24,655 nucleotides of DNA from a virus: positions 1 to 24,655 of the IMG/VR virus record IMGVR_UViG_3300046009_012030; one strand, given 5' to 3'. The position numbers and the translations under genes are program-made. Below the pieces are notes generated by a model. The model saw nothing but the letters and a program-made list of their open reading frames with translations. It was not told where the DNA came from and ran no database searches. This document shows, in pieces, positions 6,476-20,170 of the stretch (position 1 is its first letter; each line of letters starts with the position of its first letter).

Positions 6476-6769
6476 TTAGGTGGGGAGGTTTTTGGATTGG
6501 CGGGCTTCTAGGCAGAGTGGGCTGCCGGGGACAAATGCTCGGCAGGCGTGCGGACGGTGTTGGTATATTGCGCAGGCGACTCCTCGGCCCACCTCGCCAC
6601 GGAGGGCGATGCAGCGTCCGCAGGGGTCTGTCTTGAGCAGGGGGTAGTCGGTGCGGAGGTATTCGGCAGGGATGCCGGTGGCGTCGGAGCGGTCGCGCCG
6701 GAGCACGGGCCAGCTCCAACGGTGCGAGCAACATGCGCCACACCGTTGACAGTCGTATTGGGATTCCAT
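6476..6769 (-). CDS. YkgJ-like Cys-cluster protein (metal/Fe-S binding)
   Basis: A 97-residue protein starting MESQYDCQRCGACC. The C7-x2-C10-x2-C13-C14 cluster, then C50-x2-C53, and CAIYQHRPHACRAF (66-79) match the YkgJ family, which is thought to bind zinc or iron, perhaps as an Fe-S cluster. Nine cysteines are visible (7, 10, 13, 14, 50, 53, 66, 76, 86). I start at 6769; an open frame goes up to 7033, but that part is shadow of the PP-loop gene. It overlaps the PP-loop reading frame by 262 bases in another frame. A partnership with the PP-loop protein is suggested by the shared junction. Reaction and substrate are unknown. Confidence 0.8.
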   Translation of the reverse strand: MESQYDCQRCGACCSHRWSWPVLRRDRSDATGIPAEYLRTDYPLLKTDPCGRCIALRGEVGRGVACAIYQHRPHACRAFVPGSPLCLEARQSKNLPT

Positions 6770-7602
6770 GTGGGTTTGAAGCCTTGCTCTGGGATGGAGT
6801 TGTCTTCGTAGGGGGCGAGGTGGGCGATGCTGTTCACCTCGCTGCGGAGCTTGGGGCACCACACGGGGGCGGAGAGGTGGCGGTTCACGCAGTTCCAGCA
6901 AATGGGGTAGTAGTCGGCGTTGTGGGATTTGTCCTGTTTGTGGCCCCACTTGCCAGAGGCGCGGTCGTAGCGGGTGGGGTCCATCGGGACGCCTTCGGCT
7001 TCGAGGTAGTCGAATATGTCGTCGTCGGTCCAATGCCGCATGAGGAAAAGCTGGGTCGGGCTGTCATCCACACGGCGCACATCCTGGGCGAGTGGGACGC
7101 CGCCTTTGATGAGATCGACATCGGCACTTTTCTGTCCGTGGAATGCGGCATCCCACGGCCAGTTGAATGAGCCGGTGGGGCGCTGGAGGACATCGGTGAG
7201 GCCGCACAGGTAGGGCTCGCCTTCCTTGGGGTGCTCGGTGCCGAGGCTGAGGACGAGGGCGCTGTGGTGGCCCCATTGGTAATATTTGAGGAAATCGAAA
7301 CGGGGCTGGCCGGTCTCGATGTCGAACCCATCCTGGATGGCGATGCGGCCGGGAGCGTAGTCGAAGAGGGTCAAGTCCCACTCGCGGGCGAGCAGGTCGC
7401 TGTGGGCGTAGCGGTGGCGGAAGCGGGGTTCGCGCCATTGCACGCAGGGGAGTCGCACGCCGAGCTTGAATATGAGGAGGTGCAGCATAGCGGTGCTGTC
7501 CTTGCCTCCGCTCCAGAGGACGACAGGGTTGCGAAATTCCCGCAGCCAATACTCGGCACGGTAGAGGGTTTCATCGACGAGGTTTTGCAGGTGTTGGTTC
7601 AT
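6508..7602 (-). CDS. PP-loop ATPase of the PAPS reductase family, with readthrough tail
   Basis: A 364-residue frame. VLWSGGKDSTAMLHLL (28-43) holds the SGGKDS PP-loop that binds ATP or an adenylyl group in the PAPS reductase / N-type pyrophosphatase family. Residues 1 to about 278 form the conserved part. It includes YYPICWNCVNR (231-241) with C235, C238 and C249, and WCPKL, but not the ECGLH motif of true CysH, so a sulfonucleotide reductase function is doubtful. The last 86 residues are read out of frame through the YkgJ-like gene and are Pro/Thr/Ala-rich. Codon 279 is TGG exactly where TGA would give the usual ATGA overlap. I suspect a lost stop; a functional protein of 278 residues is likely the ancestor. 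Confidence 0.8.
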   Translation of the reverse strand: MNQHLQNLVDETLYRAEYWLREFRNPVVLWSGGKDSTAMLHLLIFKLGVRLPCVQWREPRFRHRYAHSDLLAREWDLTLFDYAPGRIAIQDGFDIETGQPRFDFLKYYQWGHHSALVLSLGTEHPKEGEPYLCGLTDVLQRPTGSFNWPWDAAFHGQKSADVDLIKGGVPLAQDVRRVDDSPTQLFLMRHWTDDDIFDYLEAEGVPMDPTRYDRASGKWGHKQDKSHNADYYPICWNCVNRHLSAPVWCPKLRSEVNSIAHLAPYEDNSIPEQGFKPTWNPNTTVNGVAHVARTVGAGPCSGATAPTPPASLPNTSAPTTPCSRQTPADAASPSVARWAEESPAQYTNTVRTPAEHLSPAAHSA

Positions 7603-9849: not shown

Positions 9850-10248
9850 TTAGTCCTTTTCTAAAAAGTGTTTGGCGTTTTCTGCGCCGTAGTTGAGGGT
9901 GATCTCTTCGCCTGCGGCGATGTCGCGCAGGGCGTAGTGCCGCATGAGTTCGTTTACTTGGTCGATCTCGTGGGAGGCGTTGGGGGTGTCGTGGTGGTTG
10001 TAGAGGGGGGCTAGGCCGAAGCCGAGGATGCTGTTAGAGTCGTCGAGGTAGTAGCTGTAGGTCTCGCAGGCGGGGGCTTTGGCGAGTTGCTTCTTGGGCA
10101 CGGTGGCGTAGGGGGCCTCCTCGAGCACTTCGTGCTTGGCGATGGGAGCCGTGGCGAAGACGCCCCACCGGTGCAAGGGGGAGCGGCGCACAGCGAGCTT
10201 GGTCGCGTGGTAGGGCTCGGGACGGAGCATGGTGGGGGCGGTGGTCAT
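9850..10248 (-). CDS. SET-domain protein (putative protein lysine methyltransferase)
   Basis: A 132-residue stand-alone SET domain. It has HRWGVFATAPI (26-36), like the RGWGV.A motif that contacts S-adenosylmethionine; a pseudoknot-type motif YNHHDTPNA (83-91) in the place of NHS..PN; and ALRDIAAGEEITLNYG (106-121), like the final GEE(I/L)...Y segment with the catalytic Tyr (Y120). Length is near that of the small viral SET enzyme vSET of chlorella viruses (119 residues). Pre-SET and Cys-rich post-SET regions are absent. It is ATGA-coupled to the S74 fibre and 4 bases before the 747-residue virion protein, so a virion or host protein substrate is plausible but unknown. Confidence 0.82.
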   Translation of the reverse strand: MTTAPTMLRPEPYHATKLAVRRSPLHRWGVFATAPIAKHEVLEEAPYATVPKKQLAKAPACETYSYYLDDSNSILGFGLAPLYNHHDTPNASHEIDQVNELMRHYALRDIAAGEEITLNYGAENAKHFLEKD

Positions 10249-11594
10249 TTGGCTTCGAGGGCTTCGACGCGGGCGGCGAGTTCTTGGACGGCTTTAACTA
10301 ATACAGCAACTAAATGCCCCTCCTTTAAACCTAATCTTTCAACTTCCTGTTCTATGCCATTTTCAGATATTACTTTATTGTATGATATAACAGCATCAGG
10401 TATTTCTTTAACGAGGTCCTGAGCGATAAACCCTAAATTTCCTTTGGGGCCTGTTTTAAAATCAAAATGCACAGGTTTCAAAGATTTTACTTTCTCCAAA
10501 CCATGCTTGAAATTATAGTTAATGTTTTCTTTTTCCTCTAAATCAGAGGTTTGAAATAAACCTGTCGCGGAGCATGTTCCAGAAAAAACAGCATTGCCAT
10601 CACCATTTATGTTGAGCCGACTTACAAAGTTACCGTTGGTTGACCTTGTTTGAATTTGAAAATTTCCTACAGGGCGCTGCGCAAAGTCTGTAGTTATTGT
10701 ATTAACTACCACAGCGGCTTGTTGCTCCCAAGCCCCAAACGAATAACCATTAAATGAAATAATTCCTAAATTAGCGCCTGAGTTAGCAACATTAGCGGGA
10801 TTGGAGACTGTCCCAATTCCTTTTCTAAACTGCAAAACCCCACAATTTGAATCAGAACTAAATCTCTCAGAGATTAAATCTTGGCCTTTTATATTACCGC
10901 TCGTATCCCTCGCCACGATTGTATTTGCTGTGTTTTCAGCGGTAGCCGTGGTGCGGGTGTTGTTAAGGGTGCCAGTCGTAATTGCCGAGGCGTCGTGATT
11001 GTGCGAGGTCGGTGTTCTGGCATCGGACAGGCGGGAATCGGTTGTAATGACTGCCGTTCCCGTGATGGCACTTGGCGCGATACCCGTTGCAGGCGCGTAA
11101 CTTCCAGACGCTTGCTTGCCTGCCAACAGAGTGTTCATCTCGGACTCTGTGTAATAGCGGTCGTCGTGCGTGTGCGCGTCCGGCGTGGCGGTGACGGTGA
11201 TATTGGCCGACCCATTAAACGAGACCCCATTGATGGTGCGGGCCGTTTGCAGGGTTGTCGCTGTGGCAGCGTTGCCGGAGCAGGACGCCGCTGTAGTCGC
11301 TGTGGCAGCGTTGCCGGACAAGTTGGCCGTGATTGTGCCTGCGGAGAAATTGCCGCTTCCATCCCGAGCCACGATAGCGTTAGCCGTGCTGGTATTGGTT
11401 GCGGTAGTGGCGCTGTTGGCGACTTTCCCCGGCGTGGCGATCTGCGCGAGTTTCGTGTCGGCGATAGCGGCGCTGGCAGAAATGTCGGCATTCACAATTT
11501 CTGTGACACTTGCCGCATCCACCAGTTCGTGGATTTTGGCCGGGGTAACGAGTTCGCCGCTGGTGAAGGTTTTGCCTTTGGTGAGAGTTGCCAT
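10245..11594 (-). CDS. Tail fibre with C-terminal self-cleaving chaperone (peptidase S74)
   Basis: A 449-residue fibre. The N-terminal half carries typical fibre segments: ISASAAIADTKLAQI (39-53), repeated SGNAATATT, DAHTHDDRYYTESEM (139-153) and SHNHDASAITTGTL (197-210), where paired His residues could bind metal ions along a trimeric shaft. Residues 350-440 are an intramolecular chaperone: S350-D351-L-E-E-K355, then PVHFDFK, GNLGFIAQDL and GLKEGHLVAVLVKAVQEL. In the family the Ser and a Lys five residues on cause self-cleavage after trimer folding, so about 100 residues should be lost from the mature fibre. The part from about residue 226 on is AT-rich compared with residues 1-225. Coupled by ATGA to the SET-domain gene. 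Confidence 0.88.
   Translation of the reverse strand: MATLTKGKTFTSGELVTPAKIHELVDAASVTEIVNADISASAAIADTKLAQIATPGKVANSATTATNTSTANAIVARDGSGNFSAGTITANLSGNAATATTAASCSGNAATATTLQTARTINGVSFNGSANITVTATPDAHTHDDRYYTESEMNTLLAGKQASGSYAPATGIAPSAITGTAVITTDSRLSDARTPTSHNHDASAITTGTLNNTRTTATAENTANTIVARDTSGNIKGQDLISERFSSDSNCGVLQFRKGIGTVSNPANVANSGANLGIISFNGYSFGAWEQQAAVVVNTITTDFAQRPVGNFQIQTRSTNGNFVSRLNINGDGNAVFSGTCSATGLFQTSDLEEKENINYNFKHGLEKVKSLKPVHFDFKTGPKGNLGFIAQDLVKEIPDAVISYNKVISENGIEQEVERLGLKEGHLVAVLVKAVQELAARVEALEAK
11257..11318 (-). repeat. Two 23-bp direct repeats inside the fibre gene
   Basis: The same 23 bases occur at 11257-11279 and 11296-11318, 39 bases (13 codons) apart. They code for the doubled SGNAATATT segment of the fibre shaft. 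The distance is a multiple of three, so loss or gain would keep the frame. Confidence 0.85.
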
Positions 11595-11604
11595 GGGTGG
11601 GAGA

Positions 11605-11633
11605 GTTTTAAGTTTTAAGAATTAAGTTTTAAG
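11605..11633 (-). repeat. CTTAAAA heptamer repeat, copy 1
   Basis: Four heptamers (CTTAAAA, CTTAATT, CTTAAAA, CTTAAAA) and a final C on the minus strand. It is identical to copy 2. It ends 10 bases upstream of the ATG of the S74 fibre gene at 11594, with a CTCTCCCACCC-type spacer and no Shine-Dalgarno sequence. Confidence 0.9.
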
Positions 11634-11660
11634 CCTCTGTGTTCTCTGTGTGCTCTGTGG
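11634..11660 (-). repeat. Nonamer repeat (CACAGAG core) beside heptamer repeat
   Basis: On the minus strand, three contiguous 9-base units share the core CACAGAG: CCACAGAGC, ACACAGAGA and ACACAGAGG. It fills the gap between the stop of the large tail gene (11661) and heptamer copy 1. Similar CACAGAG strings recur between genes in some bacterial genomes, from memory, so it may be a captured host-type intergenic repeat. Confidence 0.7.
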
Positions 11661-13562
11661 TTAATTCAAAGTTCGGGTTTCGGTGGGGTCGAGGGCGGAG
11701 CGGGTAGCTTCGGCGCTGATCTGGCGGAGGATGGGTCTGCCGGAGGTGGTGCGGAAGCGGAGGTCGAGGCCGGTCGCTTTGCAGCGCAGGGGGGCTTTAA
11801 GCGTGTAGTCTTCCTCCTCCCCGGTGGTGTTCTCCAGGGCGGCGACTTGGAAGTCAGCGTCGTAGTCAGTAGTCACGGCATCTAGCGTGCAGGCGGAGGC
11901 GTCTGGCAGAAGCACGCTGGCTTTGGCTCGGGTGAGGCGCTTGGTATTGAGGCTCCCCCAGCCGTAGCGGCGGGTAATGAGTTCGGAGGGGATTTCGGTG
12001 TAGAGGTCTTGCGCGTTCGCGTAGGGCACTTCGTCGCCGTAGTCCAGCTCATCGAGCAGGAAGAGGGTTCCGGCGCGGCTCGCAGCAAAGAGGCGGCGTT
12101 GGCTGGAGTAGGTGGCGACCAGTAGCTCGTCGAGGTTGATTGCGTAGGTGTCGCGGCTTTCCCATTGCGAGTTCAGAGCGTTCCAGAGGAAAAGGGTGTT
12201 GTTGCTTGTGGTATTTTCGCCGATGGGCACAGCGAGGTAGTAGCGATTGTTCCACCACCGTCCTACGGCGAGGTGCGCGTAGTCGGTGTTGATTTCGTCG
12301 ATCTGGTCGGCGATGGGGTCGGAGAGGGGTTGGGTATTCGCCCTTAACTTGAGATCGAGCTGGGTATCGAGGCGATAAACTCCGGCGTCCGAGAGGAAGA
12401 AGACGAACTGCCCGGCAGTGACTACGCTGCGGCGGGCGACACAGCCGATCTCGTCGGTGAGGAGAGTTAGGCGGGAGACGGCGCTGTCCACCGTGAAGGT
12501 GTCGCCCGTCGCGTTGCTGGTGTCGGAGAGATTGGCGAGCCAGATGCTGTTCCGCATGAAGACGAGCGCCTGCCCCTCGACCCAAGGATGGATGGCGACG
12601 AGGTAGTCGTTGCTGCCCTGGTTGGCGCGGAAAGATTGGAAAAAAGGGTCGAAAAGATCAGGCTCAAGAACATCCGAGATCGCCACCGTGTCGCGGCCGT
12701 CGGGGATCCACAGGCGGTTGCCGATGTAGCTGGCCCAGCCGGTGGAGCGCAGGGTCTTGAATGTCACGCCCTCGGCAGGCACGCCCGAGGCGGCGCGTTG
12801 AAACTCCATTGTCGAGCCATCCCACCAGAGCGGGGCTTTGACGCGGCGGATTGCGATGTCGGCGGAGACATCCGGCGCAGTGCCAGCAGGCACGGCGACG
12901 GTGAAGGAATTTGTGGTAGCGGTGAGGATGTCGAACTCATGCCCTTGAAATGCCGCTTGGCTCCCCTCCTCGATCCGCACGCGCTGCCCGGCAGCGAGGC
13001 CATGGGCAGTGATATGGACGGTGGCCGTGGTGCCGGAGACTGCAATGCCGCTGGCGGTGGTGTATTTCCAATCCCAGCCAGGGAGCGTCATGTCGGCCTC
13101 GCGGAGGAGGTAGAAACGATTGAACGCTTGGATCGTCGAAACGCTGTCCGTGGGCTCGATGATCTCGTCGGACGCTGTGCCAGTGGCGGGATAGTTGATC
13201 TCCTCGATAGGCTCGTCTTGCCGGTAGAGAAATGCCGAGGTCGGCCCGCAGAGGACGATGTATTCATTTTCATCGTCGTAATTTGGCGAGCTGAAAACGC
13301 CCGAGGCGAAGATGCCGCCAGAGTAGATCGTGCGCACGCGGGCATTGGCATCCAGCACAAAGGGCATCACGAGAGGCTGCGTGCCTGCGGCGATGCCATC
13401 ACCCAGGCGTTTCGCGCCTTTGCGGGTCTGGGCGACGCCACGGTCCAAGCGCATGTTTTCGCAATACTGCACCATGCCCGGCTGGAGTTGCAGCGGGTTG
13501 AGGCGGGAGGCCATGCCGAGGAATCCGGCGTCGCCTTCTACGATTGTTTGATCATCGGGCAT
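11661..13562 (-). CDS. Large tail / nozzle-type structural protein (633 aa)
   Basis: A 633-residue protein. Its N-terminus (GFLGMASRLNPLQLQPGMVQ, then YCENMRLDRGVAQTRKGAKRL) is typical of large podovirus tail or DNA-stabilising proteins that line the lower tail. The bulk has repeating beta strands (for example RLWIPDGRDTVAISDVLEPD, LVFMRNSIWLANLSDT and RWWNNRYYLAVPIG) in the manner of a beta-propeller. Residues about 170-240 form an inserted small beta domain, with ATVHITAHGLAAGQRVRIEE and NSFTVAVPAGTAP, a module found in other virion proteins. The end (ATRSALDPTETRTLN) has no catalytic sign. Position before an S74 fibre supports a tail hub or nozzle role. Confidence 0.7.
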   Translation of the reverse strand: MPDDQTIVEGDAGFLGMASRLNPLQLQPGMVQYCENMRLDRGVAQTRKGAKRLGDGIAAGTQPLVMPFVLDANARVRTIYSGGIFASGVFSSPNYDDENEYIVLCGPTSAFLYRQDEPIEEINYPATGTASDEIIEPTDSVSTIQAFNRFYLLREADMTLPGWDWKYTTASGIAVSGTTATVHITAHGLAAGQRVRIEEGSQAAFQGHEFDILTATTNSFTVAVPAGTAPDVSADIAIRRVKAPLWWDGSTMEFQRAASGVPAEGVTFKTLRSTGWASYIGNRLWIPDGRDTVAISDVLEPDLFDPFFQSFRANQGSNDYLVAIHPWVEGQALVFMRNSIWLANLSDTSNATGDTFTVDSAVSRLTLLTDEIGCVARRSVVTAGQFVFFLSDAGVYRLDTQLDLKLRANTQPLSDPIADQIDEINTDYAHLAVGRWWNNRYYLAVPIGENTTSNNTLFLWNALNSQWESRDTYAINLDELLVATYSSQRRLFAASRAGTLFLLDELDYGDEVPYANAQDLYTEIPSELITRRYGWGSLNTKRLTRAKASVLLPDASACTLDAVTTDYDADFQVAALENTTGEEEDYTLKAPLRCKATGLDLRFRTTSGRPILRQISAEATRSALDPTETRTLN

Positions 13563-13985
13563 CTACCTTCTATTCTGCGGGGGCTTGTCAAGGAGGCTGC
13601 GGATGGCCGGGGTGCTCAGGCGGCGGCGGTTGTTTGAGCTGAAAAGGTCGCGGATGCCGGAGGCGGTTTTGTGCGGGTGGGCGAGGATTTTCTCGCGGAC
13701 TTTTGGCAATAGGTCGGCGGGGATGCCGGGGATGGAGTCTGCTGCGGCGGGGGAGGTTTTGGTGCCAGCCGTGCGTTGGCGGTAGCCGGTTTGGTAGAGA
13801 AGTTGGCGGCTGCCGGGTTGCCAGTGTGGGAAGTTCTGCTTCTCGACTTGGCCGTCGCGGATGGCGGCGGCGAGGATTTTGGGGACTTCGGAGATTTCGC
13901 AATCGAGGTCGGCGGCGATTTCGTCGGGGGTGCTCCAGCCTTCGGGGAGACTGTTGGTGCGCTTGGCGAGGTGTTTCCAGGTCAT
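13563..13985 (-). CDS. Putative winged-helix protein paired with the phosphoesterase
   Basis: A 140-residue basic protein, ATGA-coupled to the phosphoesterase (13982-13985). Residues about 12-66 (LPEGWSTPDEIAADLDC, then VPKILAAAIRDGQVEKQ and GSRQLLYQTGYRQR) have the order of a helix-turn-helix with wing: EIA..L.C....V...L..AI..G.V. A second similar half, around 95-135 (VREKILAHPHKTASGIRDLF, then TPAIRSLLDKP), could be another small DNA- or protein-binding helical unit. Its role is unknown. The next gene begins on the base right after its TAG, with AAGG 7-10 bases upstream of that ATG, one of the few Shine-Dalgarno-like sites here. Confidence 0.55.
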   Translation of the reverse strand: MTWKHLAKRTNSLPEGWSTPDEIAADLDCEISEVPKILAAAIRDGQVEKQNFPHWQPGSRQLLYQTGYRQRTAGTKTSPAAADSIPGIPADLLPKVREKILAHPHKTASGIRDLFSSNNRRRLSTPAIRSLLDKPPQNRR

Positions 13986-14989
13986 AGGTAGATGGGAGAG
14001 GTCATGGTCCTGCCGCGCTTCTTATCGAGGAGGAAATAGGTCTGCGTGGGGGGCTCGAAGCTGGCTTTGATCGAGAGGGCGTAGGCGTTGTAGCCGATGA
14101 GGCTGCCGTTGCAGAGCCAGTGCCGGTTCTGCTGGTATTGGTGCCAGTGCCCGAAAAGATCAAGGTCGGCTCGGTTGGGTGACTTATTCCATGAGGCGAT
14201 GGCCTTTTCTGTCGGGATGGTAAGGCCCCCGATGCCGCCTTGAAATTTCAGCCCGTCGCCGTGGTGGAAGCGCAGGCGGCGGTCGAAGACCGTCATGAAA
14301 TTGAAATAGCTGTCGGCGATCTGAAATTCGATTTGCTGGTCGTCGGCGAAGCGGCCTTCGAGGATGCGGTAGAGAAGCCATTCGTAGCTGTGGGCGGCTC
14401 CGGTGGCGTGGCGGGGCTTTTGCGTGGTGCGTCCGTGGTTGCCGTAGCTGGTGGGAATGAGGATGCGCTTGAAGTGAGGCTTGAGCGTGGCGAGGCCGTC
14501 GGCGAGCCGGTCTTGCAGCCAGAGGATGACTTGCGTGGGGGTTTTGGAATTACTCTCGGCGAGTTCTTCGTGGATCATGCCGGTCATGAGGTCGCCGCCG
14601 AGCCAGAGGATGAGGTCGTCGATCTTGGCCCCGTGGCGCTCGATCTCGGTGAGGCGGGCGATGGTGGAGAAAAATTTCTCGATGCGGGTCTTGGCGATGG
14701 GGAGCCGGTATTCGTTGAGGCCATTCACGCTGGCGGATTCGACCGTTTCCTCGACATGCCAATCGCTGGCGAGCGCGATGGCGACGGCTTCGGCTTTGTC
14801 GCTCATCGAGACGGAGAGCGGATGCGGGCGGATGCGGGTCTTGCCGAGCGAGAGCGCGATGCCGAGTTGCTTTTCCAGCGATTCGACGCTGGCTTGGTAT
14901 TGCGCGAGCTTGGCTTTGAGGCTGTCCACCTCGGTCTTGTGGGCTTTGTCCGCTTGCTCGCGGGCGATGCTGCTCCAGGATGTTTTCAT
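13982..14989 (-). CDS. Calcineurin-like metallophosphoesterase
   Basis: A 335-residue protein begun at ATG 14989 (MKTSWSSIAREQADKA); the frame upstream to 15121 is shadow sequence. Motifs of the calcineurin-like phosphoesterase fold appear in order: SDWH (75-78), GGD (131-133), YGNHGR (182-187), FHHGDG (241-246) and GHWH (280-283). These supply the two-metal site. A helical coiled segment (about residues 10-45) precedes the catalytic domain. Substrate is unknown; relatives include nucleases of the Mre11/SbcD group and other phosphodiesterases. It is coupled by ATGA to a winged-helix-like gene downstream, and the pair sits between lysis and tail genes. Confidence 0.85.
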   Translation of the reverse strand: MKTSWSSIAREQADKAHKTEVDSLKAKLAQYQASVESLEKQLGIALSLGKTRIRPHPLSVSMSDKAEAVAIALASDWHVEETVESASVNGLNEYRLPIAKTRIEKFFSTIARLTEIERHGAKIDDLILWLGGDLMTGMIHEELAESNSKTPTQVILWLQDRLADGLATLKPHFKRILIPTSYGNHGRTTQKPRHATGAAHSYEWLLYRILEGRFADDQQIEFQIADSYFNFMTVFDRRLRFHHGDGLKFQGGIGGLTIPTEKAIASWNKSPNRADLDLFGHWHQYQQNRHWLCNGSLIGYNAYALSIKASFEPPTQTYFLLDKKRGRTMTSPIYL

Positions 14990-15234
14990 TCTTCGTCCTC
15001 CTCGTCTTCGTCTGGCTCGTAGGGCCAGAGCATGTCTTCGGCTTCGCGGCAAAGAGATTTTGCTGCGTAGTCGTTGCCATACTTTATGTCCATGTAGTAG
15101 GTCGTGCCTTCGTCCTCCCAACTCACCACGGCAATGCCGACATCGAAATGCTCGGCAAGCAAGGAGCGCACCTGGAGCATGATGGCCTCGCGGTCTTTGG
15201 GTGGGGAGGCTTTGGGTTTGCGAATGCGGCTCAT
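14986..15234 (-). CDS. Small acidic-tailed protein (82 aa)
   Basis: Starting at ATG 15234 (MSRIRKPKASPPKDREAIML) gives an ATGA overlap with the endolysin. The protein has a basic start, a central alpha/beta core (VGIAVVSWEDEGTTYYMDIKYG) and an acidic end rich in Asp and Glu (DEDEEDEE). I do not recognise it. The purine-rich codons of the acidic tail provide a GAGGA Shine-Dalgarno-like sequence for the metallophosphoesterase that starts 4 bases before its stop. A regulatory or DNA-mimic role is possible from the acidic tail, but this is speculation. Confidence 0.55.
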   Translation of the reverse strand: MSRIRKPKASPPKDREAIMLQVRSLLAEHFDVGIAVVSWEDEGTTYYMDIKYGNDYAAKSLCREAEDMLWPYEPDEDEEDEE

Positions 15235-15683
15235 GCGAAGATGTCTTTCCCTGCGGCGACGCGCTCGCGCATTTGGGCGAGGGTGAGGCCGGTGGGCACT
15301 TCGTAGTGCGGTGTGTCTTTGAAGCTCTTGAAATCCCCTCCCCATGTCAGGCCGAGGCTGCGGGAGGCTTGGCCGATCTCTGTGTAGATAGGCGAGTCGG
15401 TTAGGTAGGCTTTGTCTTTGAAGAGGCCGATGTCCCAGGCGGTGCCGAAATTGTGATTGGAAAAGCCAGCGCGGGCGTTGGTCACTTTCGGGCCTGCGGT
15501 GGTGCGGCCTTTGGCGTAGAGCGCATCCTGCTCGGCGTAGCTACGCAGGCCGCTGATGATGCGGACCACTACGCTATGCTTGCCTGCGAGGTCGAGCGCG
15601 AGTCGCATGAACTCTCGCGCTTTAGGCTGAACAGCCGGGTGCAGCGTCGAGATATTCCGCTCGGTGCGCTCGTCGAAGGTCAT
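15231..15683 (-). CDS. Endolysin, M15-type L-alanyl-D-glutamate (VanY-like) peptidase
   Basis: A 150-residue single-domain peptidoglycan peptidase. The fingerprint includes SGLRSYAEQDALYAKGRT (residues 44-61), SNHNFGTAWDIGL (75-87) and TPHYEV (124-129). H77, D84 and H126 are the expected zinc ligands of peptidase family M15, the subgroup used by many phage endolysins to cut cell-wall stem peptides. No signal peptide or wall-binding domain is present, so export through a holin is expected. It starts with an ATGA overlap on the lipoprotein gene (15680-15683) and overlaps the next gene the same way. Length matches single-domain enzymes such as the T5-like lysins. Confidence 0.9.
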   Translation of the reverse strand: MTFDERTERNISTLHPAVQPKAREFMRLALDLAGKHSVVVRIISGLRSYAEQDALYAKGRTTAGPKVTNARAGFSNHNFGTAWDIGLFKDKAYLTDSPIYTEIGQASRSLGLTWGGDFKSFKDTPHYEVPTGLTLAQMRERVAAGKDIFA

Positions 15684-15847
15684 TTGCTTGAGGACGGCTT
15701 GGGCAGCTCGGGGAGGGTGTAGCTAAACCTGCCGTAGTCGGTTTCGAGCGAGACGCCGAGGGTGGAGCAGCCGGTGAGGAAGGAGATGCAGAGAAAGATG
15801 TAGCCGAGCAGCAGGCCGGTGGCGGCGATCTGGGCGGGCGAGGTCAT
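15680..15847 (-). CDS. Short phage lipoprotein, possible outer-membrane spanin
   Basis: A 55-residue protein started at 15847 (MTSPAQIAATGLLLG), which gives ATGA coupling to the gene before. An upstream in-frame ATG at 15934 exists but lies within the preceding gene. A hydrophobic signal segment leads to a lipobox, L24-T25-G26-C27, so the predicted mature lipoprotein is only 29 residues (CSTLGVSLETDYGRFSYTLP, then a Pro/Ser/Lys end). Rz1-type outer spanins are short, proline-containing lipoproteins in the same place. There is no clear Rz partner, so a spanin role is a guess. A lipobox would imply a diderm host if it is an outer spanin. Confidence 0.65.
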   Translation of the reverse strand: MTSPAQIAATGLLLGYIFLCISFLTGCSTLGVSLETDYGRFSYTLPELPKPSSSK

Positions 15848-16008
15848 TTCTCGTCGCGGAAAACCTCGTAGGCTCCCACGAGCGCGATGACAACCGCACT
15901 GATGGCCGAAAATTGGTCGGGACTGACTTGCCAACCGGTGAGGGCTACGAGCGAGGCGATGCCTGCCCAGGTGGATCTTTGCTTTAGGTGCGAGAGGATT
16001 TTATTCAT
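15844..16008 (-). CDS. Second small membrane protein, holin-like or inner-membrane lysis protein
   Basis: A 54-residue protein that begins MNKILSHLKQRSTWAGIASL and ends VGAYEVFRDEK. Two hydrophobic stretches are visible, about residues 14-26 and 34-50, with a basic N-terminus. It lies between the first holin candidate and the lipoprotein, overlapping the latter by ATGA (15844-15847). It may be a second holin, an antiholin or, less likely, an inner-membrane spanin partner, as it lacks the coiled-coil periplasmic part of classical Rz proteins. Its start follows heptamer-repeat copy 2. Confidence 0.6.
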   Translation of the reverse strand: MNKILSHLKQRSTWAGIASLVALTGWQVSPDQFSAISAVVIALVGAYEVFRDEK

Positions 16009-16019
16009 GGGGGGAGGGA

Positions 16020-16048
16020 GTTTTAAGTTTTAAGAATTAAGTTTTAAG
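16020..16048 (-). repeat. CTTAAAA heptamer repeat, copy 2
   Basis: Identical over 29 bases to the copy at 11605-11633. On the minus strand it is made of CTTAAAA and CTTAATT heptamers. It supplies the TAA stop of the upstream holin gene and ends 11 bases before the ATG at 16008. The spacer is CTCCCTCCCCCC-like, with no Shine-Dalgarno sequence. Confidence 0.9.
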
Positions 16049-16229
16049 GGTCGAGCGGCGGGCGCTTCTTGTTGAGGATGGCGTAGAGCGAGGCCACGCC
16101 GACCGCGATGCCGACTAGAAGCGAGGCGATGCGCAGCCAGGCTTCGATCTCGGGAAGCATCGACACCCCGAGCCCCGTCGCGGTGGCGACGAGGCCGGTG
16201 AAGGAGGCGGCGGCTTGGTGCGTGTCCAT
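16044..16229 (-). CDS. Putative holin (61 aa, two membrane segments)
   Basis: I begin this at ATG 16229 (MDTHQAAASFTG), not at the upstream ATG 16283, because the upstream part overlaps the previous gene and looks like a frame shadow. The protein has two likely membrane segments, about residues 9-25 and 31-52, and a basic end (NKKRPPLDP), the layout of class II holins. Its TAA at 16044-16046 falls inside heptamer-repeat copy 2. It heads a lysis cassette with a second membrane protein, a lipoprotein and a peptidoglycan peptidase. The role is inferred from topology and neighbours, not from a recognised family motif. Confidence 0.65.
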   Translation of the reverse strand: MDTHQAAASFTGLVATATGLGVSMLPEIEAWLRIASLLVGIAVGVASLYAILNKKRPPLDP

Positions 16230-16231
16230 GG

Positions 16232-17671
16232 CTAGCTCAGGGCGGCGGCCAGTTGCGCTCCGGTGGTGGCGACGGTGCTGCACTGGCCGAGGCGGTCGGT
16301 GTTGAGCAGGTCGGTCTTGGCTTTCACCGCGTCGAGCTTCGAGGCTTCGGAGGCAGCGAGTCTGCTGCTCACGGCTTGGTCCACTCGGGCCAACTCGACC
16401 GAAAGCTCGGAACGCACGGCTGCTGCCACCGTGCTGGCGGACGGCGCAGTGACTCCGGCGATGGCGGCTTCGAGGAGGCTTTGGTCGGCAGGATCGCTCG
16501 GCAGCGCATCGGTCTTCGATTTGATCGCCGAAAGCTGGGTCGAGTTGCTATCGAGTTCTTGGCGAATCTCGATGGCTGTCGGGCCGCTGGCGCTGGTGAG
16601 CGTGCGGGTGGCGTGGCTCCAGATGTCGCTTGGCGTGACTGATGCTGGGGCGTTGGTGAGCGTGTCAACCACGCCGCCGGTGATGGTGCGGCTGGCGGCT
16701 CCCCACACGGCATTTGCCACAGAGGCTGCGGTTGGGGCGCTGGTCGGCGCGTTGTAGTCTGCCGATGCGAGGCGGCTTGAGATCGTGGCATCGAGGTTGA
16801 TGAGCTTGCCGCCGGTGCGCTCAAGGTCGGCTCGGATCGCGGCGACGAGGGCGATCTGGTCAACATTGCTGTTTCCGATTGCGGCGACGATGGCGTTCAG
16901 AACGGCTTGTCCATCGCCTTCGTTGAGAATGGAGGACTCGACGGCGGCGGCAATGGCCGAGCGTTCTGCGCTGGTGAGTGAGTAGCCTGTCTTGTCTGCC
17001 GCCGCCCAAACTGCTGAGGCGATGTCTCCGGCTGTTGGTGGAGTGCTTGGCGCGGTGTAGGCCGAACCGGCGAGCCTGCTCGACACGGTGGCGTCGAGGT
17101 TCGCCAGCTTGGTGGAGTTGGCATCTAGTTCAGTGCGGATGTCTGCCACGCTCGGGATCGAGAGGGCGGAGATAGCGGCCTCGACGAGGCTTTGGTCGGC
17201 GGGGTCGCTGGGGAGATTGTCTGTGGAGGACTTGATGGCGGCGATGTCGGCGGTTGGTATGTCGCTGACGGCTGCAGGGCTTGCTGGCAAGTTGTCGGTT
17301 TTGGCCTTGATTGCCGAGATGTCTGAGTTCGCTGGGGCTGTGTAGCCAGAGGAAGCGAGTCGTGAGCTGGTGGCAGCATCGAGATTTTCGACTCCGGCGC
17401 GGCCGAGGACCCAGAGGCTCGGGATGTGCTGGGCGTCCACGGTGGAGTCGGTGGTTTTGAAGATGGCGGCGTATTCGCCCTCCGAGGAATTGTCGGTTGA
17501 GAGCGTGTAGGCATACAACCCGCCGCCGAGGGCGGTGGCGCTGCCGTCTGTGACGATCTGCGTGCCGCTTGGATTGTAGATATCGACCGTGACGGTGAGG
17601 CCGGTTTTGCCTTGTTTGCTCGCCGTGTAGAAGGCGAGGAATTTAACGGAGGTGGAGACTTGTTCGAGCAT
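16232..17671 (-). CDS. Repeat-containing tail / fibre-associated protein (479 aa)
   Basis: A 479-residue protein. Residues 1 to about 90 form a beta domain (FLAFYTASKQGKTGLTVTV, then GGGLYAYTL and GEYAAIFKTT) that is common at the N-terminus of phage tail-associated proteins. The rest is made from repeating segments of types IR.EL(D)..S.KL.NLDA.(V/I)SSRLA, (A/S)IK.(S/K)TD.LP(S/A)DPADQSL.EAAI, and A..VWGAA. The order shows at least three degenerate copies. No enzyme signature is seen. I infer a shaft or scaffold built of repeated helix-beta units, with a particle-binding head. Its leader upstream of 17671 is C-rich (CCACCACCC) with no Shine-Dalgarno sequence. The holin gene follows two bases after its stop. 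Confidence 0.6.
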   Translation of the reverse strand: MLEQVSTSVKFLAFYTASKQGKTGLTVTVDIYNPSGTQIVTDGSATALGGGLYAYTLSTDNSSEGEYAAIFKTTDSTVDAQHIPSLWVLGRAGVENLDAATSSRLASSGYTAPANSDISAIKAKTDNLPASPAAVSDIPTADIAAIKSSTDNLPSDPADQSLVEAAISALSIPSVADIRTELDANSTKLANLDATVSSRLAGSAYTAPSTPPTAGDIASAVWAAADKTGYSLTSAERSAIAAAVESSILNEGDGQAVLNAIVAAIGNSNVDQIALVAAIRADLERTGGKLINLDATISSRLASADYNAPTSAPTAASVANAVWGAASRTITGGVVDTLTNAPASVTPSDIWSHATRTLTSASGPTAIEIRQELDSNSTQLSAIKSKTDALPSDPADQSLLEAAIAGVTAPSASTVAAAVRSELSVELARVDQAVSSRLAASEASKLDAVKAKTDLLNTDRLGQCSTVATTGAQLAAALS

Positions 17672-17685
17672 GGGTGGTGGTGGGT

Positions 17686-18003
17686 TTAGATTTCTTCTTC
17701 GGGTTGGGGCAGTAGCGGGAGGACTTGGGACATGGGGAGGACTTCGACGCTGGGGAAAAGCTCGGCGGGCAGGTGCGCAAATCCGCCGGAGTAGAGGCCG
17801 CCGGGGCCGATTTCGGTCAGTAAATCCGCGCAGAGCATTTTTCGGCCATCGACGAGATCGACCGGAGAAGCGACATGGCGGGGGTTGCCGTGCTCGCTCT
17901 GGACGGCGGCGAGTTGGGCCGCGAGTTCGGGCGAGAAGACGAGCGCAAGGTCTTTTGTGGTATCGTAGCTCACGGGCTGGGTGATGAGGTCGGCGAGTGT
18001 CAT
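17686..18003 (-). CDS. Small protein following the tip gene (105 aa)
   Basis: A 105-residue protein that I do not recognise, starting with an ATGA overlap on the tip gene (18000-18003). It has a short helix-rich beginning (TLADLITQPVS), PELAAQLAAVQSEHG, then RHVASPVDLVDGRKMLCADLL and an acidic end EEEI. No signal peptide or transmembrane helix is visible. Given the coupling with the tip gene it could be a fibre assembly chaperone or a small virion component, but nothing in the sequence decides between these. Confidence 0.5.
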   Translation of the reverse strand: MTLADLITQPVSYDTTKDLALVFSPELAAQLAAVQSEHGNPRHVASPVDLVDGRKMLCADLLTEIGPGGLYSGGFAHLPAELFPSVEVLPMSQVLPLLPQPEEEI

Positions 18004-18809
18004 ATGGCGGCGGCGAGGGCGGTCATGAGCGTGGACACGCGGGTGTCGAGGAGGGCGAGGTCGAGGTTTTCCCCCACTGAGTAGAAGGAAATGCGTCCGT
18101 CAAAAAAGAAGTTGGGGTTATTTGTTCTTGAAAAAAAACTCATGGCCACTTGACGAGGGATTACTGAATTAACACTAACAATCTGGGATGCCCCGTTTCT
18201 TCTAAAAATAAAGGAGGCGCCTACAGAGCGGCTTACAGCAAATGTTCCGGGTGTTGGTGCAAGTGCTGTTGTGGTTTGCACTAAGCAATTTAATCTTGAA
18301 AAAGACTGCGAGGTCGAAAACGCAACGGATATGTTTGTCGCTGCTAAACTGCCCGTTGCCTCGTCGCCCAGCAGCAATTTTGCTGCTCCAGTAATGTCTG
18401 AAGCAAAACATGCGGCGTGAGCATTATTTTGGTTCGATGTTGGGAAAAAATAATTTGAGTTCAATCGCTTAGTTGATCCGTTGCCTTTCAGGCCAGTCTT
18501 TCGACTAAAATCGCCAGAGACAAAATTAGAGTTTGTCGGCGCAGATCCAACGAGTGGGACGAGTGCACCGGATAGGGTGCGAGCCCCAGCCAAAATGCAA
18601 GAGGATTTTATCGCGCTCCAGATGCCGTCTGCTTTGCAACCTACTACAAATGAATTTATAGCATCGGCAACCGATTGTTCCAACTGCATTGCATCTGCGT
18701 TTTCAACGGCTACCAAATAAGCCTCGGCATCTGAATCTGAAACAGGAGCACGAACTGCCTTGGTCGGCACGCGGAGGGGGGAGAGTTGGCCGTAGAGGGG
18801 CGAAATCAT
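18000..18809 (-). CDS. Putative receptor-binding tail tip protein
   Basis: The frame is open to 18839, but the ATG at 18809 (MISPLYGQLSPLRVPTKA) gives the ATGA overlap typical here, so I start it there (269 residues). The N-terminal part holds helical SVADAINSFVVGCKADGIW and then CILAGARTLSGALVPLVG and SRKTGLKGNGSTKRL. This resembles a module I know from phage tail and lectin-like (LamG/concanavalin-type) virion proteins, where jelly-roll strands follow. The interior (about 18075-18735) is far richer in A+T than the flanks, with 35% GC in hand-counted lines, while its last about 25 codons return to high GC. This mosaic pattern is common in proteins that bind the host surface. Sugar or protein receptor is unknown. 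Confidence 0.6.
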   Translation of the reverse strand: MISPLYGQLSPLRVPTKAVRAPVSDSDAEAYLVAVENADAMQLEQSVADAINSFVVGCKADGIWSAIKSSCILAGARTLSGALVPLVGSAPTNSNFVSGDFSRKTGLKGNGSTKRLNSNYFFPTSNQNNAHAACFASDITGAAKLLLGDEATGSLAATNISVAFSTSQSFSRLNCLVQTTTALAPTPGTFAVSRSVGASFIFRRNGASQIVSVNSVIPRQVAMSFFSRTNNPNFFFDGRISFYSVGENLDLALLDTRVSTLMTALAAAI

Positions 18810-19174
18810 GAATAGCTCAGGTTTTCTTTGTTGCTCCACTGCCCGACTGCGGATTGCTCCGAGACGACATTGCCTGCGGCGTCGGTGGTGATGCGGTAGA
18901 TGGTCCAGGATGGGGCGTCCTCGGCTGGGCCGGTGGCGGGGTAGTCGGCCCAGGCGAGGCGGCCCATGTAGAGGGTCGTGCCGTCGGTGGCGGAGAGTTG
19001 CAGGTAGTCGCTGGGGTCGCGGGGGCGGGCGAGGCGGAAGACTTCTCCCAGGTGGTCTTTCGAATACAAGCGCCGGTCGGCGAGGTTTAAGGCGAGGCTC
19101 CCTTCGGCCACTTGGGCGGCGGTGGGGACTCGGCCGGGAACCGTGCTGCGGAGGAGCTTGAAGACCGTGGCCAT
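18806..19174 (-). CDS. Fibre-base / tail module protein (122 aa)
   Basis: A 122-residue protein starting MATVFKLLRSTVPGRVPT followed by EGSLALNLADRRLYSKD. The pattern 'LLRS..PG..P....(V/L).EG.LALN.AD.RLY.KD..G' is a widespread N-terminal module of phage tail fibres and side-tail proteins. The remainder has TLYMGRLAWADYP and WTIYRITTDAAG, further beta strands seen in fibre-type proteins. It overlaps the receptor-binding candidate by ATGA (18806-18809), so one reading is a split fibre in which this protein supplies the particle-binding base and the next supplies the tip. It begins after heptamer-repeat copy 3. Confidence 0.65.
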   Translation of the reverse strand: MATVFKLLRSTVPGRVPTAAQVAEGSLALNLADRRLYSKDHLGEVFRLARPRDPSDYLQLSATDGTTLYMGRLAWADYPATGPAEDAPSWTIYRITTDAAGNVVSEQSAVGQWSNKENLSYS

Positions 19175-19181
19175 GAGGGAA

Positions 19182-19210
19182 GTTTTAAGTTTTAAGGATT
19201 AAGTTTTAAG
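19182..19210 (-). repeat. CTTAAAA heptamer repeat, copy 3
   Basis: On the minus strand this is four 7-base units (CTTAAAA, with one CTTAATC variant) plus a final C. It differs by one base from the copies at 11605-11633 and 16020-16048. It ends 7 bases before the ATG at 19174 and lies in the 102-base gap between two fibre-type genes. No Shine-Dalgarno sequence is present between it and the start codon. Confidence 0.85.
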
Positions 19211-19276
19211 TGGGGCGGCCCTGGGCGGCGGCGCGGGTTGGGACCGCGCTGCCGCTTTGAGGGGGATGGGGGGCGA

Positions 19277-20170
19277 TCAGAAGGTTCCGCCGTCGATCTC
19301 GGTCTCGAGCGCGAGGACGCGAACTTCGAGCGAGTCGATGTCGCCTTCGTTGGTCGTCACACGACCGGCGAGGGTCGTTGCGGCGGACTCGATGGCTTCG
19401 ATGTCGGACTCAGCGGTGGAGACGCGGCCGGTGAGGGCTGTGGCGTCGCTCTCGATGGTGCTGGCGCGGCTCTCAAGCGCGGCGATGTCGGACTCGACTT
19501 CATCGAGGCGAGCGTCGGCGCTGGCGTTTTCGAGCACGACCACTCGGCTATCGAGGGCGCTGATGGCCGAAGCACGGGTGCTGGCTTCGCTGTCGATATT
19601 CGACTGGAGGGTCGCGTCGTTGTTCGAGCGGGTGGTCGCCTCGCTGTCGATGTTGCCCTGGAGGGTCAAATCATTGGCGGCGCGGGTCGAGGCTTCGCTG
19701 TCGATGTTGCTCTGGAGGGTGGAGTCGGCGGCTTCGAGCGTGGCCACAGCGGAGCTGAGGGCGCTGGAGGCGCTGTTGGCGAGGGAGGTGATCGCACCGT
19801 TGAGGTTGCTGTCGGCGGCCTCGAAGGCGGCGACCACTTCCGTCAACGAATCGAGCGAGCCCTGCGTTGTGTTCGAGAGAACATTGTCGATGCGAACGCC
19901 GAGGGCTTGTTCCGCTGCGGTGGCGCGGGTGACTTCGGAGGAGAGATCCGAGGATACGCTGGTGATCGCGGCTTCGCGGGCCGAGGTCTCGGAGGAGAGC
20001 TGGCTGAGGGTGGCGAAGTGGCCGGGGCCAGCGAGAACGATGTTCTCGACGCCATCGCCTACATAGAGTTTGCCGTCAACTTTGTTCCAGGCGAGTTCGC
20101 CTGCATTGGCTGTGGAGGGGGCTCCAGCGGCACCGCTGAGGCGGCGTTTGATTCTGAGGATGTTTGCCAT
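19277..20170 (-). CDS. Coiled-coil fibre protein with tandem repeats
   Basis: A 297-residue protein. The N-terminus (ILRIKRRLSGAAGAPST, then GELAWN and KLYVGDG) is the short beta module that anchors many phage fibres to the particle. The rest is nearly all helix-forming, with Ala, Ser, Glu and Asp in heptads. A central 18-residue unit (pattern TLQ.NIDSEA.TR..ND) is present three times, and SDI.A.ES-type coils follow towards the end. I infer a long, trimeric, coiled-coil shaft, perhaps a spacer bearing a tip encoded by a neighbouring gene, as no receptor-binding head domain is visible at the C-terminus, which ends VLALETEIDGGTF. The 54-base DNA repeats could change shaft length by recombination. 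Confidence 0.7.
   Translation of the reverse strand: MANILRIKRRLSGAAGAPSTANAGELAWNKVDGKLYVGDGVENIVLAGPGHFATLSQLSSETSAREAAITSVSSDLSSEVTRATAAEQALGVRIDNVLSNTTQGSLDSLTEVVAAFEAADSNLNGAITSLANSASSALSSAVATLEAADSTLQSNIDSEASTRAANDLTLQGNIDSEATTRSNNDATLQSNIDSEASTRASAISALDSRVVVLENASADARLDEVESDIAALESRASTIESDATALTGRVSTAESDIEAIESAATTLAGRVTTNEGDIDSLEVRVLALETEIDGGTF
19580..19735 (-). repeat. Three tandem 54-bp units inside the fibre gene
   Basis: The string TCGCTGTCGAT starts at 19587, 19641 and 19695, exactly 54 bases apart, followed each time by a near-identical CTGGAGGGT. Each unit codes for 18 residues of the coiled-coil shaft. The frame-preserving length means copy-number change would lengthen or shorten the shaft without frameshift. 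Confidence 0.85.

Follow-up and report, generated by a model that had tools for sequence, protein, structure and literature searches.

Repeat arrays before a phage tail-fibre gene resemble gene-junction sequences of Terrimicrobiaceae and may serve as a G-free leader

The short non-coding gap that precedes the tail-fibre gene of the phage studied here is, as we suggest with moderate confidence, a junction module of the type used by its putative Terrimicrobiaceae hosts, composed of one arm of a hairpin-forming element followed by a G-free leader that would work independently of a Shine-Dalgarno (SD) sequence, and this module may help the translation of the fibre gene. The observations behind this reading are the position and orientation of the repeats, the sequence common to the host family and the phages, the presence or absence of the insert among phage relatives and its linkage to a haplotype of the upstream gene.

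The window is the whole stretch of DNA analysed, a virus record of 24,655 bases with about 60% G+C, whose assignable genes all lie on the minus strand. Its gap before the fibre gene, which occupies exactly 11595–11660, had been said in a preliminary description to be made of two arrays, three CACAGAG nonamers and a set of CTTAAAA heptamers, and this was confirmed: there are three nonamers and four heptamers of the CTTAAAA type, both arrays running in the same orientation as the genes. Read in gene sense, on the minus strand, the order is the TAA stop of the gene at 11661–13562, a single C, the nonamers, a G, the heptamers, CTCCCACCC and the ATG at 11594. The features concerned are the following:

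11661–13562, minus strand: upstream structural gene (phrog_3287, 3e-8), last codons ACT TTG AAT TAA
11635–11659, minus strand: array of three CACAGAG nonamers (CACAGAG-CA-CACAGAG-AA-CACAGAG), directly 3' of the upstream stop (TAA-C-CACAGAG)
11604–11633, minus strand: heptamer block, copy 1 (CTTAAAA-CTTAATT-CTTAAAA-CTTAAAA-CT), sense strand without G
11595–11603, minus strand: G-free tail CTCCCACCC between the heptamers and the ATG, without an SD-like motif
10245–11594, minus strand: tail-fibre gene 3' of the leader (phrog_5668 tail fiber, 7e-19)
16019–16048, minus strand: heptamer block, copy 2, directly 5' of a 54-codon frame with its ATG at 16008
19181–19210, minus strand: heptamer block, copy 3 (CTTAATC variant), directly 5' of a tail-fibre-like gene whose ATG is at 19174

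In the window there are three copies of the 30-nt heptamer block, that at 19181–19210 with one mismatch, against no match in 100 shuffles; the exact triple nonamer occurs once and likewise gave no match in 100 dinucleotide shuffles. Since seven is not a multiple of three, the block carries TAA in all three frames, and at copy 2 the stop codon of the preceding frame (CCT TAA) comes from the first heptamer. Immediately 5' of copy 3 lies a G+C-rich stretch with the look of an inverted repeat (AGCGG...CCGCC type; 19211–19276, minus strand), which is also present in most of the relatives examined and could form an RNA hairpin. The small protein that adjoins the fibre gene (9850–10248, minus strand) looks by eye like what we take to be a SET-domain methyltransferase.

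Among viral sequences the exact 28-mer of the heptamer block was found in 90 stretches and its reversed sequence in none. The exact 30-mer was present in 8 stretches from three MAGs of an 84,980-species collection, all assigned to Verrucomicrobiota, namely Terrimicrobiaceae M30B24 (G001), Verrucomicrobia REEB449 (G002) and Spartobacteria UBA5019 (G003), and all three fall into one family, of which 26 genomes were compared. With up to three mismatches allowed, the block was found in 16 of these 26 genomes, the reversed control giving a single match, while a looser heptamer pattern (up to one mismatch) was found in 12 of 288 genomes of the phylum, its reversed control giving 12 matches in 3 genomes. 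Among the places listed in the phylum sample, the AATT second unit was seen only in G001 and G128, both of the Terrimicrobiaceae-type family. A heptamer search of plasmid records gave no match, and among 50,697 records of known phages there were only partial matches, with E values up to 10, in 26 records, none covering 80%.

The 95 viral instances of the 28-mer form 10 flank clusters (13 by the downstream flank alone), and the fact that an identical 28-mer with its odd CTTAATT second unit recurs in these clusters argues for copying and not for repeated slippage; an identical second unit at unrelated sites speaks for one ancestral block having been copied. A region of G001 (G001:C2:651079-653502) holds ten near-identical heptamer blocks in two clusters, mostly 130–220 nt apart, each forming part of a composite repeat that also contains CAGAATT and ACAGGA words as well as a GCCCGTAGGGCGAGCAAGGCGAGTCAAT module, and the frame between the two clusters is, judged by eye, presumably BrnT-like. 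A 42.6-kb viral contig of another lineage, IMGVR_UViG_3300009185_000039, contains three exact heptamer blocks and several CACAGAG arrays.

The block is strongly associated with gene starts. An ATG lies 2–23 nt 3' of the 28-mer in 93 of the 95 viral instances, and the intervening tail contains no G in 77 of the 93 viral instances whose ATG is no more than 42 nt away; frames of at least 35 codons open with an ATG within 30 nt on the sense side in 90 of the 95, against 2 of the 95 in antisense. From the cellular genomes 44 distinct blocks were examined, about half of the 88 places counted in the family genomes, and an ATG follows on the sense side of 24 of the 44 and on the antisense side of 3, with no sense ATG nearby in 20; with the composite loci of G001 excluded, the sense count becomes 24 of 35. 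An antisense stop is found near 15 of the 44, and in G001 composite arrays of the block also occur away from ORF starts. Some cellular blocks are followed by N-termini that we take to be those of GroEL, Der, ribosomal protein S4 and TatD.

The CACAGAG arrays behave differently in position. Exact unit pairs number 22, 16 and 66 in G001, G002 and G003, the reversed pattern giving none, and triple arrays were found in 7 of 115 Verrucomicrobiota genomes, one of which has 83. The earlier statement that such strings are intergenic repeats in several environmental bacterial groups holds insofar as multi-copy arrays do occur in cells; it does not extend to naming a host. Similar arrays were matched in 17 of 72,556 plasmid records, by name Bacteroides (9), Pseudoalteromonas, Streptomyces and Gemmatirosa (2 each), Nostoc and Calothrix, and with matches spread across such groups CACAGAG alone names no host. 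The nine Bacteroides records (NZ_OY7259xx) bear the name of the gut species Bacteroides finegoldii, a label that may be mistaken.

Of 71 cellular arrays, taken from 60 stretches of G001–G003, 59 start with a stop-like T[AG]AC-CACAGAG, and the T[AG]AC start is present in 46 of 51 distinct viral contexts. A sense frame of at least 50 codons ends within 30 nt of 42 of the 71 arrays and an antisense one of 16, the sense count being an overestimate, as T[AG]A is part of the element; a start is found nearby in sense in only 9 of the 71 and in antisense in 15. The start-side bias differs between heptamer blocks (24/44) and CACAGAG arrays (9/71; Fisher p = 4e-6). Arrays on both strands are present in 9 of the 60 cellular stretches, and two full host elements chosen for folding are palindromic and give long hairpin structures (-49.5 and -71.8 kcal/mol; z -9.9 and -11.2), whereas the folding of the single arm in the window is not stronger than that of shuffles (z -0.95). 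Given the opposite positional preferences of the two repeats in cells and viruses, the gap in the window can be regarded, by position, as the fusion of a stop-side with a start-side module.

Among the viral sequences a CACAGAG array and heptamers lie within 30 nt of each other in 63 instances from 62 stretches, and 58 of the 63 are flanked by a stop no more than 12 nt away on one side and by an ATG no more than 40 nt away on the other. The instances form one cluster of 45 (L008, for example), one of 16 comprising the fibre junction and its relatives, and two isolated cases, both from a single contig of a different lineage. In the cluster of 45 the pair lies 5' of a start resembling the one of the endolysin gene in the window (phrog_2649, 2.7e-31), and the window's own endolysin-type junction, within 15661–15760, is the empty counterpart. 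In the preliminary description the pair had been put forward as a clue to the host; the clue stands in part, by way of the heptamers, found in three MAGs of one family, more than of CACAGAG, and not by way of the adjacent pair, which within 30 nt was found in none of the 26 family genomes. In one junction of G002 (L097) CACAGAG and heptamers lie 32 nt apart.

Independently of the repeats, the host assignment is supported by a putative prophage in the same Terrimicrobiaceae-type family. The upstream protein has a full-length, 76% identical homologue in one genome of the family, G309, whose 76-kb contig G309:C4 carries chromosome-type genes, which we take to be SMC-, TrxB- and IspH-like, followed by a prophage with only one flank on the contig. 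Of 24 window genes tested, 13 are matched in this prophage, four at 75–83% identity and the others at 25–59%. The gene most conserved there (83%) is that at 6508–7602 (minus strand), whose N-terminus is PAPS-reductase-like (phrog_424, 1.1e-9). The upstream protein matches only 2 of the 26 family genomes, the second at 34% identity, and 1 of 194 genomes in the phylum sample, also at 34%. The heptamer block was not found in G309 and, judging from the match coordinates, 6 nt separate the upstream and fibre proteins in its prophage, so that no insert fills the junction there. Most probably the host belongs to Terrimicrobiaceae, though not necessarily to the G309 species, and the heptamer block is a possible host marker for uncultivated phages of this little-studied bacterial family.

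Relatives of the phage were collected with the upstream protein, a search blind to the repeats, and the best 80 of 197 were compared at the fibre junction, one of them (L176), which had no data there, being dropped from the counts. The junction is empty in 65 of the 80, the stop and the ATG lying 1–7 nt apart, mostly two (TAACC ATGG), and an insert that is missing in so many relatives is not essential. The 14 filled junctions contain both arrays (5), both arrays together with a nested 62-nt module (5), heptamers only (3) or CACAGAG only (1). The 62-nt module, which lies inside the heptamer block in L139, L140, L141, L167 and L186, closely resembles the sequence beside a G001 block (L094).

On the tree of the upstream gene the filled state is scattered, requiring 13 changes, with as few in 82 of 500 shuffles; on two fibre trees it is modestly clustered, with 10 changes each and as few in 3 to 7 of 500 shuffles. 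The insert was rejected as a marker of one fibre type, being scattered, with modest clustering on the fibre trees, and no donor of the fibre gene, to which the pair had been suggested to point, emerged. A tie exists with the upstream gene: the synonymous ending ACT TTG AAT TAA (ACTTTGAAT) is followed by a filled junction in 11 of 11 cases and other endings in 3 of 68 (table 11/0/3/65). With filled forms scattered and 11 of the 14 sharing this upstream synonymous haplotype, the insert probably spreads by recombination and probably takes the terminal part of the upstream gene with it. Heptamer-like units were also counted in relatives at the other two heptamer sites of the window: at the 19181–19210 junction they are present in 51 of 57 junctions read (80 loci), and at the 16019–16048 junction in 11 of 24 comparable junctions, judged by eye with 45 of 79 loci read.

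What the insert might do is suggested by the composition of the leaders. An SD-like motif precedes only 2 of 23 mechanically called starts in the window, some of which are surely miscalled, and none was found before blocks 1 and 3 or in the stretch that separates block 2 from its ATG. Four window leaders in gaps without heptamers contain 0–7% G and that of site 2 contains 0%, while the whole gaps at sites 1 and 3, nonamers and G+C-rich stretch included, contain 11% and 16%; eight ORFs of the window together have 25% G. In the groES-groEL gap of 21 family genomes (L531, which gave no such gap, was dropped) the leader is 39–51 nt long with 0–10% G, and it is heptamer-like, by a loose pattern, in 13 of the 21. 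Leaders poor in G, with or without heptamers, point to a constraint for a G-poor leader, and the heptamer arrays are G-poor in one orientation only; this combination favours, as we infer, a leader for SD-independent translation. A gain in start-codon accessibility was considered as the benefit of the insert and discarded, since 12 distinct filled sequences do not differ in it from 48 distinct empty ones (p 0.49), and the folding energy of the start region is also alike in the two sets (p 0.45).

Taken together, the mechanism that we propose would run as follows. The CACAGAG array would be one arm of a host element typically starting with T[AG]AC, both arms of which, in cells, would fold into a long hairpin; the CTTAAAA block with its pyrimidine-rich tail would be a G-free leader common to many host and phage genes and placed a few bases 5' of the start codon; ribosomes would start there without an SD sequence, perhaps with the help of S1 or of a different protein that binds single-stranded RNA; and the insert would move by recombination. 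In a bolder form, which we regard as speculative and rather doubtful, Terrimicrobiaceae would possess a lineage-specific code of junction repeats, nonamers on the stop side and a heptamer leader on the start side, with a dedicated RNA-binding factor that reads the leader and replaces SD pairing, and phages would copy such modules from junctions of the host for their late genes, so that the module would serve translation and at the same time be mobile and mark the host.

The alternative that deserves the most attention, possible although somewhat unlikely, is that these are neutral or selfish intergenic repeats which are copied around and survive between genes, their proximity to an ATG reflecting the tight packing of genes and not function. 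The patchiness on the upstream-gene tree, the composite arrays of G001 away from ORF starts, the G001-like module nested inside the block in 5 of the 80 junctions and the copying implied by the identical 28-mers would all fit such repeats; they would not by themselves account for the sense bias (90 against 2 of 95 in phages, 24 against 3 of 44 in cells), for CACAGAG arrays lacking a start-side position in three of the same genomes, or for groES-groEL leaders that are G-poor whether heptameric or not. A recombination linker at module boundaries, by which fibre genes would be exchanged through homologous recombination, is compatible with the translational-leader reading and is in our view unlikely: the block does occur at three junctions of the window and at further ones in relatives, and the filled state is tied to the upstream haplotype and modestly clustered on both fibre trees, yet it is scattered on upstream and fibre trees alike, and a stretch of 28 nt offers little length for general homologous recombination.

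A role as promoter or terminator is very unlikely, even though the block is A-T rich and lies just 5' of genes and both of the full cellular CACAGAG elements that were folded form strong hairpins. This candidate was rejected after a sigma-70 scan of 11400–19400 which gave nothing above shuffles (1 match against 1.7), the second hexamer of that match lying past the start codon at 16008; at the fibre gap there was neither a terminator-like match nor a promoter match of the sigma-70 type, the only type scanned for. Moreover, the single arm in the phage does not form a hairpin, and the G003 block sits between groES and groEL, which usually constitute one operon. Mobilisation of REP/REPIN-type elements by a RAYT (Y1) transposase, finally, is highly improbable. 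The full CACAGAG element is palindromic, and matches to PF01797, which also covers other Y1 transposases, are present in 25 of the 26 family genomes, 87 in all, but at the 30 loci examined out of these 87 (up to about 1.5 kb on each side, 92.7 kb in all) no heptamer, CACAGAG or related array was found, and this candidate too was set aside.

Among known repeat systems, REP, BIME and ERIC sequences are intergenic palindromes and the STRR of cyanobacteria are heptameric intergenic repeats with many copies per genome. The CACAGAG repeats are like the former in that the full cellular elements, of which two were folded, are intergenic hairpins; they differ in being 9-nt direct repeats, in having no Y1 neighbourhood in the 30 loci and in being present as a single arm in the phage. 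Our search of the open-access journal literature found no account of CTTAAAA or CACAGAG repeats in Verrucomicrobiota or phages. Heptameric intergenic repeats that are G-rich and quadruplex-forming are described for Xanthomonas (GGGAATC), where they lie nearer to the 5' neighbouring ORF than to the downstream ORF, and for Nostoc (GGGGA(C/T)T) (PMC4692102); the period of seven, the intergenic location and the many copies are shared with CTTAAAA, whose sense strand, in contrast to the repeats so described, is without G.

The closest parallel is offered by the TAACTGA heptamer direct repeats, which the main text of MacGregor 2015 (PMC4679880) describes in marine Beggiatoaceae, Cyanobacteria and some Bacteroidetes. 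As presented there, they occur in 2–6 copies in the main genome treated, mostly intergenic, mostly forward and a few nt from the start codon; SD sequences are rare, some units are replaced by related 7-mers, indels between two cyanobacteria come in 7-nt steps, relatives have shorter gaps free of repeats, no transfer mechanism is known, and binding by S1, Csp or Csr is proposed as a hypothesis (PMC4679880). The CTTAAAA repeats agree with that description (PMC4679880) in the role put forward for them and in being forward, start-proximal, intergenic 7-nt direct repeats with scarce SD sequences, here at the starts of the window, where all three blocks consist of direct 7-mers in forward orientation a few nt before a start codon. 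The unit, CTTAAAA/CTTAATT, is different from the one portrayed there, as are the carriers, Verrucomicrobiota and phages, neither of which is named in the main text of that paper (0 occurrences); the two systems are thus of the same kind by behaviour and not the same repeat family. As far as our searches show, start-proximal heptamer repeats had previously been described only in cells, not in phage. Further differences from the TAACTGA system in its main-text account (PMC4679880) are that the CTTAAAA block is joined to a stop-side nonamer array and that dozens of phage relatives show where it is present and where it is missing. Because these related phages vary at one and the same junction in whether they carry the module and in how it is composed, gain and loss are directly readable, and the natural filled and empty alleles make the function of the leader testable by swapping.
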